A stretch of DNA of 64,000 nucleotides, taken from Streptomyces sp. NBC_00190. Its GTDB lineage: Bacteria > Actinomycetota > Actinomycetes > Streptomycetales > Streptomycetaceae. The notes under the pieces are model-generated. The model saw nothing but the letters and a program-made list of their open reading frames with translations, searched no databases and was not told the origin of the DNA. Position numbers and translations under genes: made by a program. Of the stretch, positions 13,602 to 56,301 are shown piece after piece. The stretch's first letter is position 1; each line of letters begins with the position of its first letter. Location of the stretch: NCBI RefSeq assembly GCF_036203305.1, contig NZ_CP108131.1:3038001-3102000 (forward strand). Reading direction: 5' to 3'.

Positions 13602-15476
13602 TCACAGATGGCGACGTCGCTGCGCGGCTTGCCGGTCGTACTCTTCACGGGCCTGGGCCGCCGCCTTGCGGGTCGCGGTCTCGGCCACAGGAACATCCCA
13701 CCACGCCTGTGCGGGGGGCGGGCCCGACACAGTGTCGGGCGTTCGGGTCTGTACGTAGACACATGTGGGACATGTTGCCGAGCGGGCCTCGGCGAGAGCT
13801 TCCCGCAGGTCACGCACGGTGCGGGCGCGGATCACGGCCATCCCGAGGGAGGCCGCGTTGGCCGCGAGGTCCACCGGGAGGGGCTCTCCCGTGTACGAGC
13901 CGTCCGGCGCGCGGAAGCGGTACGCGGTGCCGAAGCCCTCGCCGCCCACGGCCCCGGAAAGGCCTCCGATCGACGCGTAGCCGTGGTTGTCGAGGATCAC
14001 CAGCCTGAGCGGGACACCCTCCTGTACGGCCGTGACGATCTCGGTCGGGTTCATCAGGTACGTGCCGTCGCCCACCAGCGCCCACACGGGGCGGCCCGGC
14101 GCGGCGAGGGCGACCCCGATCGCGGCCGGGATCTCGTATCCCATGCAGGAGTACCCGTACTCGACGTGGTACTGGTCCGCCGAGCGGACCCGCCACAGTT
14201 TGTGCAGGTCGCCGGGGAGGGAGCCGGCCGCGTTGATCAGGATGTCGGTGTCGTCGGCGAGGGCGTCGAGCAGGCCCAGCACCTGCGCCTGGGTGGGCGG
14301 CAGGTCCTCGTCGGGGGCGGACACGGCGTAGGCCTGGTCGACGCGGGCCTCCCAGCGGCCCCTGCCCTGACGGTACGCCGTCTCGTACGCGGGATCCACG
14401 CGGTGGCCGGACAGCGCGAGGCGCAGTTCGTCGAGGCCTTCGCGCGCGTCGGCGACCAGGGGCAGGGCGGCGAGTTTGTGGGCGTCGTACGGGTCGAGGT
14501 TGAGGCCGATGAACCGGACGGCCGGATGCCGGAAGAGGGTCGCGGAGGCGGTGGTGAAGTCGGTCAGCCGGGTCCCGGCGGCGATGACGAGATCGGCCTC
14601 CCGGGCCAGGGCATCGGCGACGACGGTCCCCGTGTGGCCGATCCCGCCCAGGTCGGCGGGGTGGTCGTACGGCAGGACGCCCTTGCCGGCCTGGGTGACC
14701 GCGACCGGGATCCCGGTGGCCTCGGCGAGGGCGGCGAGGGCCGCCTGGGCCGCGCTGTGCCGGATCCCGCCGCCCGCGACGATCAGCGGCCGGGCACAGC
14801 CCCGTACCGCTTCGGCCGCCACGGCGAGCTCGTGGCGGTCGGGCCGGGGCCGGCGCACCCCCCAGACGCGCTCGGCGAAGAACTCCTCGGGCCAGTCGTA
14901 CGCCTCCGCCTGCACGTCCTGCGGCAGCGCGAGGGTGACGGCGCCGGTCTGCACGGGGTCGGTGAGCACGCGCATCGCCTGGAGGGCGGCCGGGATCAGG
15001 GCCTCGGGGCGGGTGATCCGGTCGAAGTGGCGGGAGACGGGCCGCAGGGCGTCGTTGACGGAGACGTCCCCGGCGTAGGGCACCTCCAGCTGCTGGAGCA
15101 CGGGGTCGGCGGGCCGGGTGGCGAAGGTGTCCCCGGGCAGCAGGAGCACCGGGATCCGGTTGATCGTGGCGAGGGCGGCGCCGGTGACGAGGTTGGTGGC
15201 GCCGGGCCCGATGGAGGTGGTGACGGCGTGCGCGGAGAGCCGCCCGCTCTGCCGGGCGTACCCGACGGCCGCGTGCACCATGGCCTGTTCGTTGCGGCCC
15301 TGGAGGAAGGGCATGGCGTCCGGGCCGGTCTCCAGGAGGGCCTGCCCCAGCCCGGCGACGTTCCCGTGTCCGAAGATCCCCCAGGTGGCCGCGATCAGCC
15401 GGCGGCGCTGTCCGTCGCGCTCGGTGTACTGCCGGGCGAGGAAGGTGACGAGGGCCTGGGAGACGGTGAGTCTCAT
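13602..15476 (-). CDS. iolD: 3D-(3,5/4)-trihydroxycyclohexane-1,2-dione hydrolase
   Basis: A 624-residue TPP-dependent enzyme that opens the ring of the diketo-inositol intermediate. It begins MRLTVSQALVTFLARQYTER and carries the activating Glu in GRNEQAMVHAAVGYAR, SIGPGATNLVTGAA, and the TPP/Mg segment LVGDGTYLMNPTEIVTAVQE followed by DNHGYASIGGLSGAVGG, typical of IolD rather than acetolactate synthase. The start at 15476 overlaps the iolB stop by 4 bases (ATGA), showing translational coupling. Confidence 0.92.
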   Translation of the reverse strand: MRLTVSQALVTFLARQYTERDGQRRRLIAATWGIFGHGNVAGLGQALLETGPDAMPFLQGRNEQAMVHAAVGYARQSGRLSAHAVTTSIGPGATNLVTGAALATINRIPVLLLPGDTFATRPADPVLQQLEVPYAGDVSVNDALRPVSRHFDRITRPEALIPAALQAMRVLTDPVQTGAVTLALPQDVQAEAYDWPEEFFAERVWGVRRPRPDRHELAVAAEAVRGCARPLIVAGGGIRHSAAQAALAALAEATGIPVAVTQAGKGVLPYDHPADLGGIGHTGTVVADALAREADLVIAAGTRLTDFTTASATLFRHPAVRFIGLNLDPYDAHKLAALPLVADAREGLDELRLALSGHRVDPAYETAYRQGRGRWEARVDQAYAVSAPDEDLPPTQAQVLGLLDALADDTDILINAAGSLPGDLHKLWRVRSADQYHVEYGYSCMGYEIPAAIGVALAAPGRPVWALVGDGTYLMNPTEIVTAVQEGVPLRLVILDNHGYASIGGLSGAVGGEGFGTAYRFRAPDGSYTGEPLPVDLAANAASLGMAVIRARTVRDLREALAEARSATCPTCVYVQTRTPDTVSGPPPAQAWWDVPVAETATRKAAAQAREEYDRQAAQRRRHL

Positions 15477-16393
15477 CGGGGTGCCTCCGCCTCGGTGAAG
15501 GGCAGCCGGGGGTCGACGTCCTGGCCGTCCCAGGTGGACCGGATCCAGCCGTGGTCGGGGTGGTCGCGGATCAGCCACTCCCGCGTCGCGCCCGGACCGG
15601 CCATCACGTTGAGGTAGTACATGTCGTGGCCGGGGGCGGCGATGGACGGGCCGTGCCAGCCGTCGGGGATGAGCACGGCGTCCCCGGTGCGCACCTCGGT
15701 GAGGATGTCGGTCTTCCCGGCCCGGGAGGGGCTGACGCGCTGGTAGCCGAGCCCGGGGACGTCCCCGTGCGGGGCGATCTCGAAGTAGTAGATCTCCTCC
15801 AGCCGGGACTCCTCGCCGGGGTGGTGCTCGTCGTGCTTGTGGGGCGGGTACGAGGACCAGTTCCCGCCGGGGGTGAGGACCTCCACGGCGATGAGCCGGT
15901 CGCAGTCGAATCCGGCGGGGCCGGCGGCGGCGAAGTTGTTGACCTGACGGGAGCACTGCCCGGTGCCGCGCAGTTCGACGGGCACGGCCTTTGCCGGTCC
16001 GTACCGGGCGGGCAGCTGGTTGTCGCACCGGGCCCCCGCGAGGGCGAACCGCCCGCCGTCCCTCGATGTGACCTCCGCGTGCGCGTCCCGGGGCACGTAC
16101 GCGAAATCGGTGGGGCCGCCGAAAACCCCGTTTCGTCCGCGGAGTTCGAACGCCTGCGGCTCCGCTGCGGGGGCTCCGCCGATGACCCCCGTTTCACCGC
16201 CGCCCGGCGGAAAATCCAGCCCCGCCGGCGTTTGAGGCGCGGGTCCGGGCAGAGCCCGGCAGCGGACCTCGCACCCGCCCGACAGCGGGAGCACGATCCA
16301 CTCGCACTCCCCCGCCTCGAACCCGTACGCCTCCCCCGGCTCAAGGGCGAGCACCCGCAGCCGAGTCCATTCCATCCCCCACTCAGACACCAC
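15473..16393 (-). CDS. iolB: 5-deoxy-glucuronate isomerase with in-frame repeat insertion
   Basis: A cupin enzyme of inositol catabolism. The metal-binding part HKHDEHHPGEESRLEEIYYF and the C-terminal YYLNVMAGP are intact. Two things are odd. First, the N-terminus is short: the protein enters at EWTRLRVLALEPGEAYGF, without about 20 residues usually found before it. Second, about 35 extra residues from RALPGPAPQTPAGLDFPPGG onward split a conserved strand; they are encoded partly by a dispersed repeat (16215-16259). GTG 16393 has GGGG 7 bases upstream and overlaps the iolC stop; GTG 16390 and ATG 16375 are alternatives. Whether the enzyme is active is uncertain. Confidence 0.82.
   Translation of the reverse strand: MVSEWGMEWTRLRVLALEPGEAYGFEAGECEWIVLPLSGGCEVRCRALPGPAPQTPAGLDFPPGGGETGVIGGAPAAEPQAFELRGRNGVFGGPTDFAYVPRDAHAEVTSRDGGRFALAGARCDNQLPARYGPAKAVPVELRGTGQCSRQVNNFAAAGPAGFDCDRLIAVEVLTPGGNWSSYPPHKHDEHHPGEESRLEEIYYFEIAPHGDVPGLGYQRVSPSRAGKTDILTEVRTGDAVLIPDGWHGPSIAAPGHDMYYLNVMAGPGATREWLIRDHPDHGWIRSTWDGQDVDPRLPFTEAEAPR
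16215..16259 (+). repeat. Dispersed palindromic repeat, copy A, inside iolB
   Basis: A 45-base element with core GGCGTTTGAGGCGCGGG and a small terminal hairpin (CCGGGC AGA GCCCGG). It matches the two copies in accA1 (55614-55661 and 55824-55871). Read on the minus strand in the iolB frame it encodes PGPAPQTPAGLD, very close to the [12 protein letters not shown] of the first accA1 copy. Confidence 0.85.
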
Positions 16394-54170: not shown

Positions 54171-54186
54171 CGTGAGGACCTCTTCG

Positions 54187-56301
54187 ATGTTCAGCACTGT
54201 TCTGGTCGCGAACCGCGGCGAGATCGCGGTCCGGGTCATCCGCACCCTGCGGGAGCTCGGCATCCGCTCCGTGGCCGTCTTCAGCGACGCCGACGCGGAC
54301 GCCCGCCACGTACGGGAGGCCGACACGGCCGTCCGCATCGGCCCGGCGGCGGCCGCCGAGAGCTACCTGTCGGTGGAGCGGCTGCTGGATGCCGCGAAGC
54401 GGACGGGCGCCGAGGCCGTGCACCCGGGCTACGGCTTCCTCGCCGAGAACGCGGCCTTCGCCCAGGCCTGCGCGGACGCCGGACTGGCCTTCATCGGGCC
54501 GCCCGCCTCCGCCATCTCCCTCATGGGCGACAAGATCCGGGCCAAGGAGACGGTGAAGGCGGCGGGCGTGCCCGTGGTCCCCGGCTCCTCCGGCAGCGGC
54601 CTGACCGACGCCGAACTGGTCGCGGCCGCCTCGGAGATCGGCATGCCGGTGCTGCTGAAGCCCTCGGCGGGCGGCGGCGGCAAGGGCATGCGGCTCGTAC
54701 GCGACGAGGCGGTGCTGGCCGAGGAGATCGCGGCGGCCCGCCGCGAGGCCCGCTCGTCCTTCGGCGACGACACCCTCCTGGTCGAGCGGTGGGTGGACCG
54801 GCCCCGGCACATCGAGATCCAGGTGCTGGCGGACTCCCACGGGAACGTGGTCCACCTGGGCGAGCGCGAGTGCTCGCTCCAGCGCCGCCACCAGAAGGTC
54901 ATCGAAGAAGCCCCCTCGGTCCTGCTCGACGAGAAGACCCGCGCGGCGATGGGCGCGGCGGCCGTCGACGCGGCCCGCTCCTGCGGGTACGTCGGCGCGG
55001 GCACGGTGGAGTTCATCGTCCCGGGCGGGGACCCCTCCTCGTACTTCTTCATGGAGATGAACACGCGCCTCCAGGTCGAGCACCCGGTGACGGAGCTGAT
55101 CACCGGCCTGGACCTGGTGGAGCAGCAGCTGCGCGTGGCCGCGGGGGCTCCTCTCGGGTTCGACCAGTCCGACGTGACGCTGACCGGCCACGCCATCGAG
55201 GCCCGTGTCTGCGCGGAGGACCCCGCCCGGGGGTTCCTGCCGTCCGGCGGTACGGTCCTGGCGCTGTCCGAGCCGGACGGCGGCCCGGTCCGTACGGACT
55301 CCGGGCTGACGGCGGGCGTGCCGGTCGGGTCGACGTACGACCCGATGCTGTCGAAGGTCATCGTCCACGGGCCGGACCGGGCCAGTGCCCTGCGCATGCT
55401 GCGGGCCGCCCTCGCCGACACGGTGATCCTGGGTGTCCAGACCAACGCGGGGTTCCTGCGTCGTCTGCTCGCGCACCCGGACGTGGTGTCGGGCGAACTG
55501 GACACGGGCCTGGTCGAGCGCGACCTCCCGTCCCTCCTCCCGGACGGCGTCCCGGCCGAGGTGTACGCAGCGGCTGCGCTGCTGTCTGGCCCCCACCCCG
55601 CCCCTTCCCGAACCTGGGGCTCCGCCCCAGACCCCGGTCCTCAAACGCCGGACGGGCTGGGTAGGTGGGTCGACCCGTTCGATGCCGTCAACGGCTGGCG
55701 CCTCGGCGGGACTCCGGCGTGGACCGTGCACCGCTTCCGCCTCCCCGGCCAGGATCCCGTGGAGGTCCGCACTCGGCCGTCGGGCTCCGGGACCGAGCTC
55801 GTCCTGGCCGACTCCGGCACCGATCCAGCCTCGCCGGCGTTTGAGGCGCGGGGTCTGGGGCAGAGCCCCAGCGCACCGGCGCGCGCCCGGATCGTCACCC
55901 GCACACCGGACCACCTCACCATCGAGCTGGACGGCGTCACGCACACCTTCAGCCACGCCACCTCCCCGGAGGGGACCTGGCTGGGCCGCGACGCGGACTC
56001 CTGGCACGTGCAGGCCCACGACCCGGTGGCCGCCGCCCTGAGCGGGAGCGGCCACGCGGGGGCCGACACCCTGGCCGCCCCCATGCCCGGCACCGTCACC
56101 GTCGTCAAGGTGGCCGTCGGCGACAAGGTGGTGGCCGGGCAGAGCCTCCTCGTCGTCGAGGCCATGAAGATGGAGCACGTCATCTCCGCCCCGCACGCCG
56201 GGACCGTCACCGAGCTCGACGTCACCCCCGGCACCACCGTCGCCATGGACCAGGTCCTGGCCGTGGTCACCCCGGAACCGGAAGAGGAGGCGGCCGCATG
56301 A
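54187..56301 (+). CDS. accA1: Acyl-CoA carboxylase alpha subunit with two in-frame repeat insertions
   Basis: 704 residues. Biotin carboxylase domain: [46 protein letters not shown]. Biotin carrier domain at the C-terminus: [17 protein letters not shown] with biotin Lys near 661. The middle domain that joins the beta subunit carries two copies of a dispersed repeat in opposite orientation (55614-55661 and 55824-55871), encoding [18 protein letters not shown] and [18 protein letters not shown]. The frame and both catalytic domains are intact, so the protein is probably active with variable loops. GAGGA precedes ATG 54187. Confidence 0.92.
55614..55661 (-). repeat. Dispersed palindromic repeat, copy B, inside accA1
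   Basis: 48 bases. On the minus strand it matches copy C (55824-55871) at 41 of 48 positions and shares the core GGCGTTTGAGG with copy A in iolB. Its end forms a hairpin (CTGGGGC / GCCCCAG). Confidence 0.88.
55824..55871 (+). repeat. Dispersed palindromic repeat, copy C, inside accA1
   Basis: 48 bases, in opposite orientation to copy B 162 bases away. In this frame it encodes [14 protein letters not shown], different from the PQTPxGL reading of copies A and B, because it lies the other way round relative to the gene. Confidence 0.88.

Follow-up and report, generated by a model that had tools for sequence, protein, structure and literature searches.

The window, a 64,000-nt stretch of Streptomyces sp. 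NBC_00190 DNA, contains the gene accA1, and two copies of a palindromic repeat lie inside its coding sequence in opposite orientation. The earlier note reported this pair correctly and overlooked a third copy in the window, at 16214-16260 in iolB. The relevant features are the following.

15473..16375, minus strand: iolB, 5-deoxy-glucuronate isomerase of the KduI/IolB family, an ORF that hosts the third copy
16214..16260, minus strand: third window copy, in frame in iolB, encoding the peptide RALPGPAPQTPAGLD (33.9 bits)
54172..56301, plus strand: accA1, acyl-/methylcrotonyl-CoA carboxylase alpha subunit, 709 codons from a GTG, host of two copies
55591..55662, plus strand: copy 1 (site 1), an outer end, a hairpin and a core half, about residues 474-497
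55663..55822, plus strand: conserved BT-domain segment WVDPF...VEVRTR, which separates the copies and is also found in insert-free homologues
55823..55875, minus strand: copy 2 (site 2), a core half and a hairpin in inverse orientation, about residues 551-568

The true start of accA1 is probably the conserved M6 rather than the GTG. As first described, 55614-55661 and 55824-55871 are identical at 41 of 48 positions (after reverse-complementing copy 2), with 162 nt between the two 48-mers, and both remain open within the 709-codon frame; a repeat search of the window lengthens the match to 54 nt at 85% identity. The original placement of copy 1 stands but its length does not, as a profile search finds that the outer end already begins at 55591. 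The profile scores for copy 1 are 32.5 bits for the outer part (55591-55632) and 46.6 bits for the core (55609-55662), and its core subtype is GT/AC; copy 2 scores 42.3 bits with the core profile, is of subtype CG/CG, and is devoid of an outer end. The copies had been assigned to the region between the biotin carboxylase and the biotin carrier; Pfam places both sites inside the MCC-alpha BT domain (461-618), and they are not strictly interdomain. Two words from copy 1, searched with up to three mismatches, have 3 and 2 matches in the window compared with a mean of 0.01 each in shuffles, and each window copy closes one of the six reading frames. At 55401-55444 on the minus strand, the window also has a weak Rfam match to DUF3800-XI RNA (20.2 bits against a gathering score of 37.8), which is probably due to chance.

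The anatomy of the element was derived from 60 core loci of genomes G074 and G109 (the first 30 of their 238 and 125 core words, respectively) together with 30 outer-end loci. The full element, roughly 150-210 bp long, is a quasi-palindrome in which an outer end (type TTCCCCCACCCCGCCCCTTCCCGAAAC), a small hairpin (GGGGCTCCGCCCC), an ACCCC spacer, a core hairpin, and the center are followed by the mirror image. The core hairpin, CC-TCAAACGCC-GG, has a covarying stem: the two stem positions flanking this motif pair in 68 of 71 copies with four pair types, compared with 26.7 on average and at most 39 when the partners are shuffled. Core words in G109 frequently occur as plus-then-minus pairs 33-57 nt apart. 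Elements with both ends, as cut by script, measure 169-211 bp with the outer-end type of accA1 and 156-170 bp with another type. The number of closed frames out of six is 0 and 2 in two elements within livHMF and ranges from 2 to 5 in seven intergenic elements. The final profiles were built from 66 core and 16 outer copies, with those from accA1 and other genes removed, and the first versions from 69 core and 24 outer copies, none of which came from accA1. It is to these first versions that the maxima of 6.2 bits (core) and 5.9 bits (outer) over 1380 shuffles of 69 accA1 linkers belong.

Motifs of similar appearance are frequent in the intergenic DNA of Streptomyces. The genome-wide search that the earlier note had proposed finds the element dispersed over its own genome (8.9 Mb, G000): a search with the 72 nt surrounding copy 1 gives 49 matches at E ≤ 10 (of 54 candidates, 40 were scored), and 15 of these, both accA1 copies among them, lie at E ≤ 0.01. 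The exact word CTCAAACGCCGG occurs 13 times in this genome, compared with 3 for the reversed word. The core word is present in 114 of 150 Streptomyces genomes, with 0-238 occurrences per genome, and is most abundant in G074 (238), G079 (207), G002 (193), G051 (172), G085 (168), and G109 (125); the reversed word reaches 0-6, so genomes with few core words may have them by chance. Fifteen genomes of other genera (147 genomes of the order were surveyed) hold 0-2 core words against 0-4 in the controls, and within the order surveyed, the element is restricted to Streptomyces. The outer-end word GCCCCTTCCCGAAA occurs 1, 22, 3, 3, and 9 times in G000, G074, G109, G128, and G046, and its reversed counterpart does not occur in them. 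In a plasmid collection, 27 records carry the element, all from Streptomyces, and the best match lies under an annotated helix-turn-helix gene in 20 of these 27, a position confirmed in one record. Contig C2 of the own genome (260,073 bases) has a copy at 255339-255372, and a linear plasmid of Streptomyces sp. NBC_00122 (260,100 bases) has one at a similar place, which hints that the two are near relatives. The copy in NZ_CP108097.1 (10183-10746, L346) overlaps the extreme end of a gene for a hypothetical protein, suggesting that elements may also provide stop codons or C-terminal tails. Among phage sequences, the sole match, 24 nt shared with two microvirus records, was judged to be chance.

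With a crude gene caller, the loci from G000, G074, and G109 merge into 47 clusters, five of which are called in genes; the 42 occupied gene gaps comprise 22 convergent, 16 tandem, and 4 divergent ones, whereas the other gene pairs of these loci, 50 in total, include only 2 convergent ones. Location within genes is seen for 12 of 29 outer-end loci, representing 10 distinct insertions, as opposed to 3 of 60 core loci (p 5e-5), figures that were entered by hand and count both ends of one element twice. The automatic callers disagree over the 138 unique copies. The first places copies in accA1, livHMF, and PTS, the second in at least eight contexts, the third in livHMF and PTS only, and the fourth has 21 of 107 copies in genes, some of them doubtful (L270, L275, and L271, the last having no outer word at its center). 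None of the callers flagged iolB, so the in-gene counts are rough.

In IolB, the loop of the window protein reads CEVRC-RALPGPAPQTPAGLD...-AFELRGR, and across 120 homologues its length varies from 4 residues in the emptiest to 106. Peptide signatures of the element were found in 63 of the best 120 of 1523 IolB hits (the window protein included) and in 3 of the reversed controls. For livHMF, sampled at 28 usable loci from 26 genomes, matches above 15 bits occur in eight genomes (G000, G039, G046, G074, G083, G085, G098, and G123), G054 reaches 14.6 bits, and both outer ends lie inside the gene in G074 and G046. The LivM-LivF linker of G074 (L326/L342) is 223 residues long and contains, next to a full element, an extended Gly-Ala repeat. 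The PTS fructose IIABC gene exceeds 15 bits in 3 of 30 loci (G074, G012, and G083), with 11.3 bits in G046 and nothing above 9 bits in 26. A DNA profile match in an open reading frame places an in-frame copy in NasA of G109 and G128, and NasA signatures are present in 40 of 120 proteins listed from 5435 hits and in 3 reversed ones. Homologues were compared for accA1, iolB, livHMF, PTS, and nasA, all of which vary in presence or absence of the element; the remaining cases rest on an open frame, a profile match, and Pfam domains, located on one or both sides of the match in AtuA, MbnB-like, and UvrD-like proteins of G074 and in a plasmid helix-turn-helix protein of the own genome. The inserts sit between Pfam domains in PTS, AtuA, NasA, LivHMF, and the UvrD-like protein and within a domain in AccA1 and IolB, and they occupy loops or linkers in the cases examined. 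In-gene copies use all three plus frames and several minus frames.

Taken together, these observations make us confident that the accA1 segments are incomplete copies of a non-autonomous palindromic repeat that is confined to Streptomyces, lies mostly between genes, and also enters coding sequences. How the copies came to occupy accA1 was examined in its homologues. Matches to parts of accA1 are present in all 150 genus genomes, and 30 automatic and 40 further loci from these genomes plus 80 named loci gave a set of 150, of which 145 were kept (L055, L248, L249, L250, and L252 were left out). Some strains appear twice in the set and two come from outside the family; most of the homologues belong to one clade, so the carrier frequencies are not genus averages. 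The linker spans 60-225 residues, about 12% of the gene, and accommodates all 25 matches above 15 bits, which come from 13 of the 145 homologues. Site 1 is filled in eight (L044-L048, L071, L072, and L189) and site 2 in twelve (L044-L047, L049, L050, L071, L072, L078, L179, L189, and L218). Of the 11 members of the own clade, seven carry the element, and loop-free homologues, which the earlier note had named as support for an insertion, are found both in that clade and elsewhere in the genus. Signatures were detected in 93 (site 1) and 88 (site 2) of the best 120 of 2243 AccA1 hits, a list biased toward the own clade, and in 10 and 13 reversed loops of 120 AccA1 proteins. Weak signals outside the carrier count come from L101 and L063 (outer profile, 11.7 and 10.7 bits) and L194 (core, 11.1 bits, beyond the linker). 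L051 and L052 have nothing above 9 bits yet contain peptide scraps that may be remnants of the element. The 225-residue linker of L106 (accA1 of G002) is Thr/Gly-rich and has no element signal. In L008, a locus of the own genome, another sequence of palindromic appearance, CTCCCAGCGGTAGCTGGGGGAG, adjoins an element copy around 1400-1500, and the accA1 linker of G018 (L089, GGWGHLPAVAGGGAGEQ) holds a peptide that CTCCCAGCGGTAGCTGGGGGAG could encode; a further repeat family may be invading this loop.

The alternative to repeated entry is a single ancient insertion per site in early Streptomyces with numerous later losses, in which gene conversion by intergenic copies would hold the remaining inserts close to the local subtype; we regard this as possible, though not the likelier course. 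In its favor, every carrier has the plus orientation at site 1 and the minus orientation at site 2 (13 homologues, eight and twelve fillings), and this constancy is not accounted for by random insertion. A lineage match of the subtypes speaks for the spreading repeat: at site 1, the copies of G128, G109, and S. scabichelini reach 56-60.5 when compared with copies from G109 and 24.5-26.5 when compared with those from G074 and, judged by sequence similarity, are of the G109 subtype, while most own-clade accA1 copies are nearer to those of G074 and G000. Window copy 1 discriminates weakly (43.0 to G074, 37.5 to G109, and 36.0 to its own genome) and the L048 copy does not discriminate (34.0 to both G074 and G109). 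Against a single insertion, the left junctions of site 1 differ, following LLRQAAL in G109 and G128 and coming soon after AALL in the own clade, and the many compact linkers elsewhere that lack a profile match would require many losses. On a FastTree phylogeny of the biotin-carboxylase part (143 rows, L106 and L110 dropped, with 44 of 136 inner branches open), the patchy distribution needs at least 6 changes at site 1 and 3 at site 2 when core matches only are scored, which is compatible with an ancient origin. The G109 genome contains three exact outer-end words in all, two of which (C1:6513459 and 6513808) are its accA1 sites, and the G109 intergenic copies examined mostly bear another outer end; accA1 of G109 may preserve an older subtype of the element.

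An AlphaFold2 model of AccA1, built from a diverse alignment of 41 sequences, has a pLDDT of 83.6. Apart from the ends, only residues 475-497, 548-565, and 625-629 fall below 50, and the first two segments coincide with the translations of copy 1 and copy 2. Segment 475-497 sits between helix 462-472 and strand 518-523, and segment 548-565 between strands 540-547 and 570-577. Both inserts are thus predicted to be disordered loops, with the caveat that the low pLDDT may in part stem from sparse alignment coverage of these segments. By sequence, the nearest homologue of solved structure is 9yx0; it has no element-like peptide at either site, and its alignment with AccA1 is gapped at site 1 and, to a small extent, at site 2.

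The inverted arms could also be retained as an RNA element, a long hairpin in the accA1 mRNA that affects processing or translation. The two copies do pair with each other in a fold of 55585-55885 (−183.3 kcal/mol, z −5.55, with none of 100 shuffles as good), and the preference for convergent gene ends is what would be expected of a terminator-like RNA. Against this, every inverted pair folds, carriers of one copy exist, and 55300-56200 contains no Rfam family at the gathering score, and we consider such a role unlikely. A local inverted duplication would produce two members of one family 162 nt apart in opposite orientation, as observed, but is very improbable because the core subtypes are unlike, the outer end is found in copy 1 only, and, as a strong argument against it, L048 carries only site 1 while L049 and L050 carry only site 2. 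Chance drift of GC-rich linkers into repeat-like Pro/Ala/Gly-rich sequence, which might be entertained given that element-free PTS linkers are also of low complexity and that some reversed AccA1 loops yield signatures, is very improbable in view of the 16-47 bits that the linkers score with the DNA profiles, where shuffles reached no more than 6.2 with the first profile versions, and of the excess of signatures over reversed controls in IolB, at both AccA1 sites, and in NasA.

If the segments are copies of a spreading repeat, as we favor, they would land at many places; being GC-rich, the copies would hold few stop codons, so that read-through would often be possible and in-gene copies would be translated as part of their host proteins. 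Insertions into folded cores would be lost, those in linkers and turns would persist as near-neutral peptides, and because persisting inserts would later decay or be replaced, the same loops could be refilled in different lineages. The mover could be a transposase that works in trans on the hairpins; alternatively, the copies could arise through recombination or template switching. A RAYT/Y1 transposase was rejected as the mover on the genome distribution of the Y1_Tnp domain, which is found in 47 of 150 genomes, occurs 12 times in G145, a genome with no core words, and is absent from four of the six genomes richest in core words (G074, G002, G051, and G109). A bolder suggestion, which we hold to be doubtful, is that certain Streptomyces proteins offer landing loops (in the BT domain of AccA1, at the turn of IolB, and between LivM and LivF) that are subject to repeated invasion, where insertion is guided rather than merely tolerated; lineage-specific subtypes and the fixed orientation in AccA1 would form part of the same picture.

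The earlier note likened the repeat to the Rickettsia palindromic elements (RPEs), and the behavior bears this out, with in-frame insertion into loops of unrelated housekeeping proteins; its mobility is deduced from presence/absence variation and uneven copy number. According to PMC2229807 and PMC10969869, the RPEs of Rickettsia (and Wolbachia) are 105-146 bp long and occur between genes as well as in frame in many unrelated conserved proteins. Insertion in frame into unrelated conserved protein genes is likewise seen here, on the basis of homologue comparison or of frame, profile, and Pfam domains as given above. Set against RPEs by description, the Streptomyces element is palindromic with inverted ends, somewhat longer (156-211 bp with both ends), GC-rich, and often a half or a fragment. 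It also occupies the same loops in many species and is read in several frames and both orientations, whereas one review assigns one conserved peptide to each RPE.

PMC3733652 describes GTAG/CGTC REPs as imperfect palindromes, single or paired, located between convergent or tandem ORFs and in some cases within ORFs, with two insertions in some genes and same-site copies in two Xanthomonas recB genes. The Streptomyces element resembles intragenic REPs in being a palindrome found in convergent and tandem gaps, with in-ORF copies and double insertion. No conserved unpaired GTAG or CGTC tag was found at the core hairpin, the part examined for it; the core-stem tetranucleotides are GTCC, CGCC, CTCC, CACC, and GCCC, the first two bases of which pair. 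The element is also longer, modular, and untied to RAYT/Y1 transposases, and by both tag and transposase it lies outside the GTAG/CGTC REP superfamilies. Its plus-then-minus core words in G109 recall REPINs/BIMEs, from which it differs in that outer hairpins and ends are part of the unit and an association with Y1 transposases is absent. MITEs (ERIC, Correia/NEMIS, and RUP) are described in PMC2229807 as non-autonomous, about 100-200 bp long, and bounded by terminal inverted repeats, with some in-frame fusions. The Streptomyces element shares the terminal inverted repeats, the dispersal, and a length too short for a transposase gene; a search for the parent insertion sequence of a MITE, by the Y1_Tnp domain alone, found none.

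PMC3733652, PMC2229807, and PMC10969869 make no mention of Streptomyces, and no earlier description of the repeat was found in the open-licence PMC literature, although older subscription papers may hold one. The family seems to be undescribed in the openly searchable literature. Because REPs in ORFs, double and same-site insertions, and RPE, ERIC, and Correia fusions are already known (the last three from PMC2229807 and PMC10969869), the Streptomyces repeat is a new family of a known kind, and it stands out by its extent and its recurrent use of the same loops.

The finding is larger than first noted, in that the repeat sits in frame in several Streptomyces enzymes, where it would be translated into additional floppy loops. 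Protein-coding palindromes have so far been known mainly from Rickettsia, along with the intragenic REPs of some other bacteria, and the same behavior is now seen in a free-living, GC-rich, and heavily studied genus. Repeat-built linkers are poor guides to protein homology and call for caution. The many species serve as natural replicates, with filled, half-filled, and empty loops in well-characterized enzymes, so that the gain of peptides from selfish DNA becomes measurable, as do the rate of loop turnover and its cost or effect on enzyme activity. If the landing loops are real, the repeat family would keep supplying core metabolic enzymes with disordered loops.
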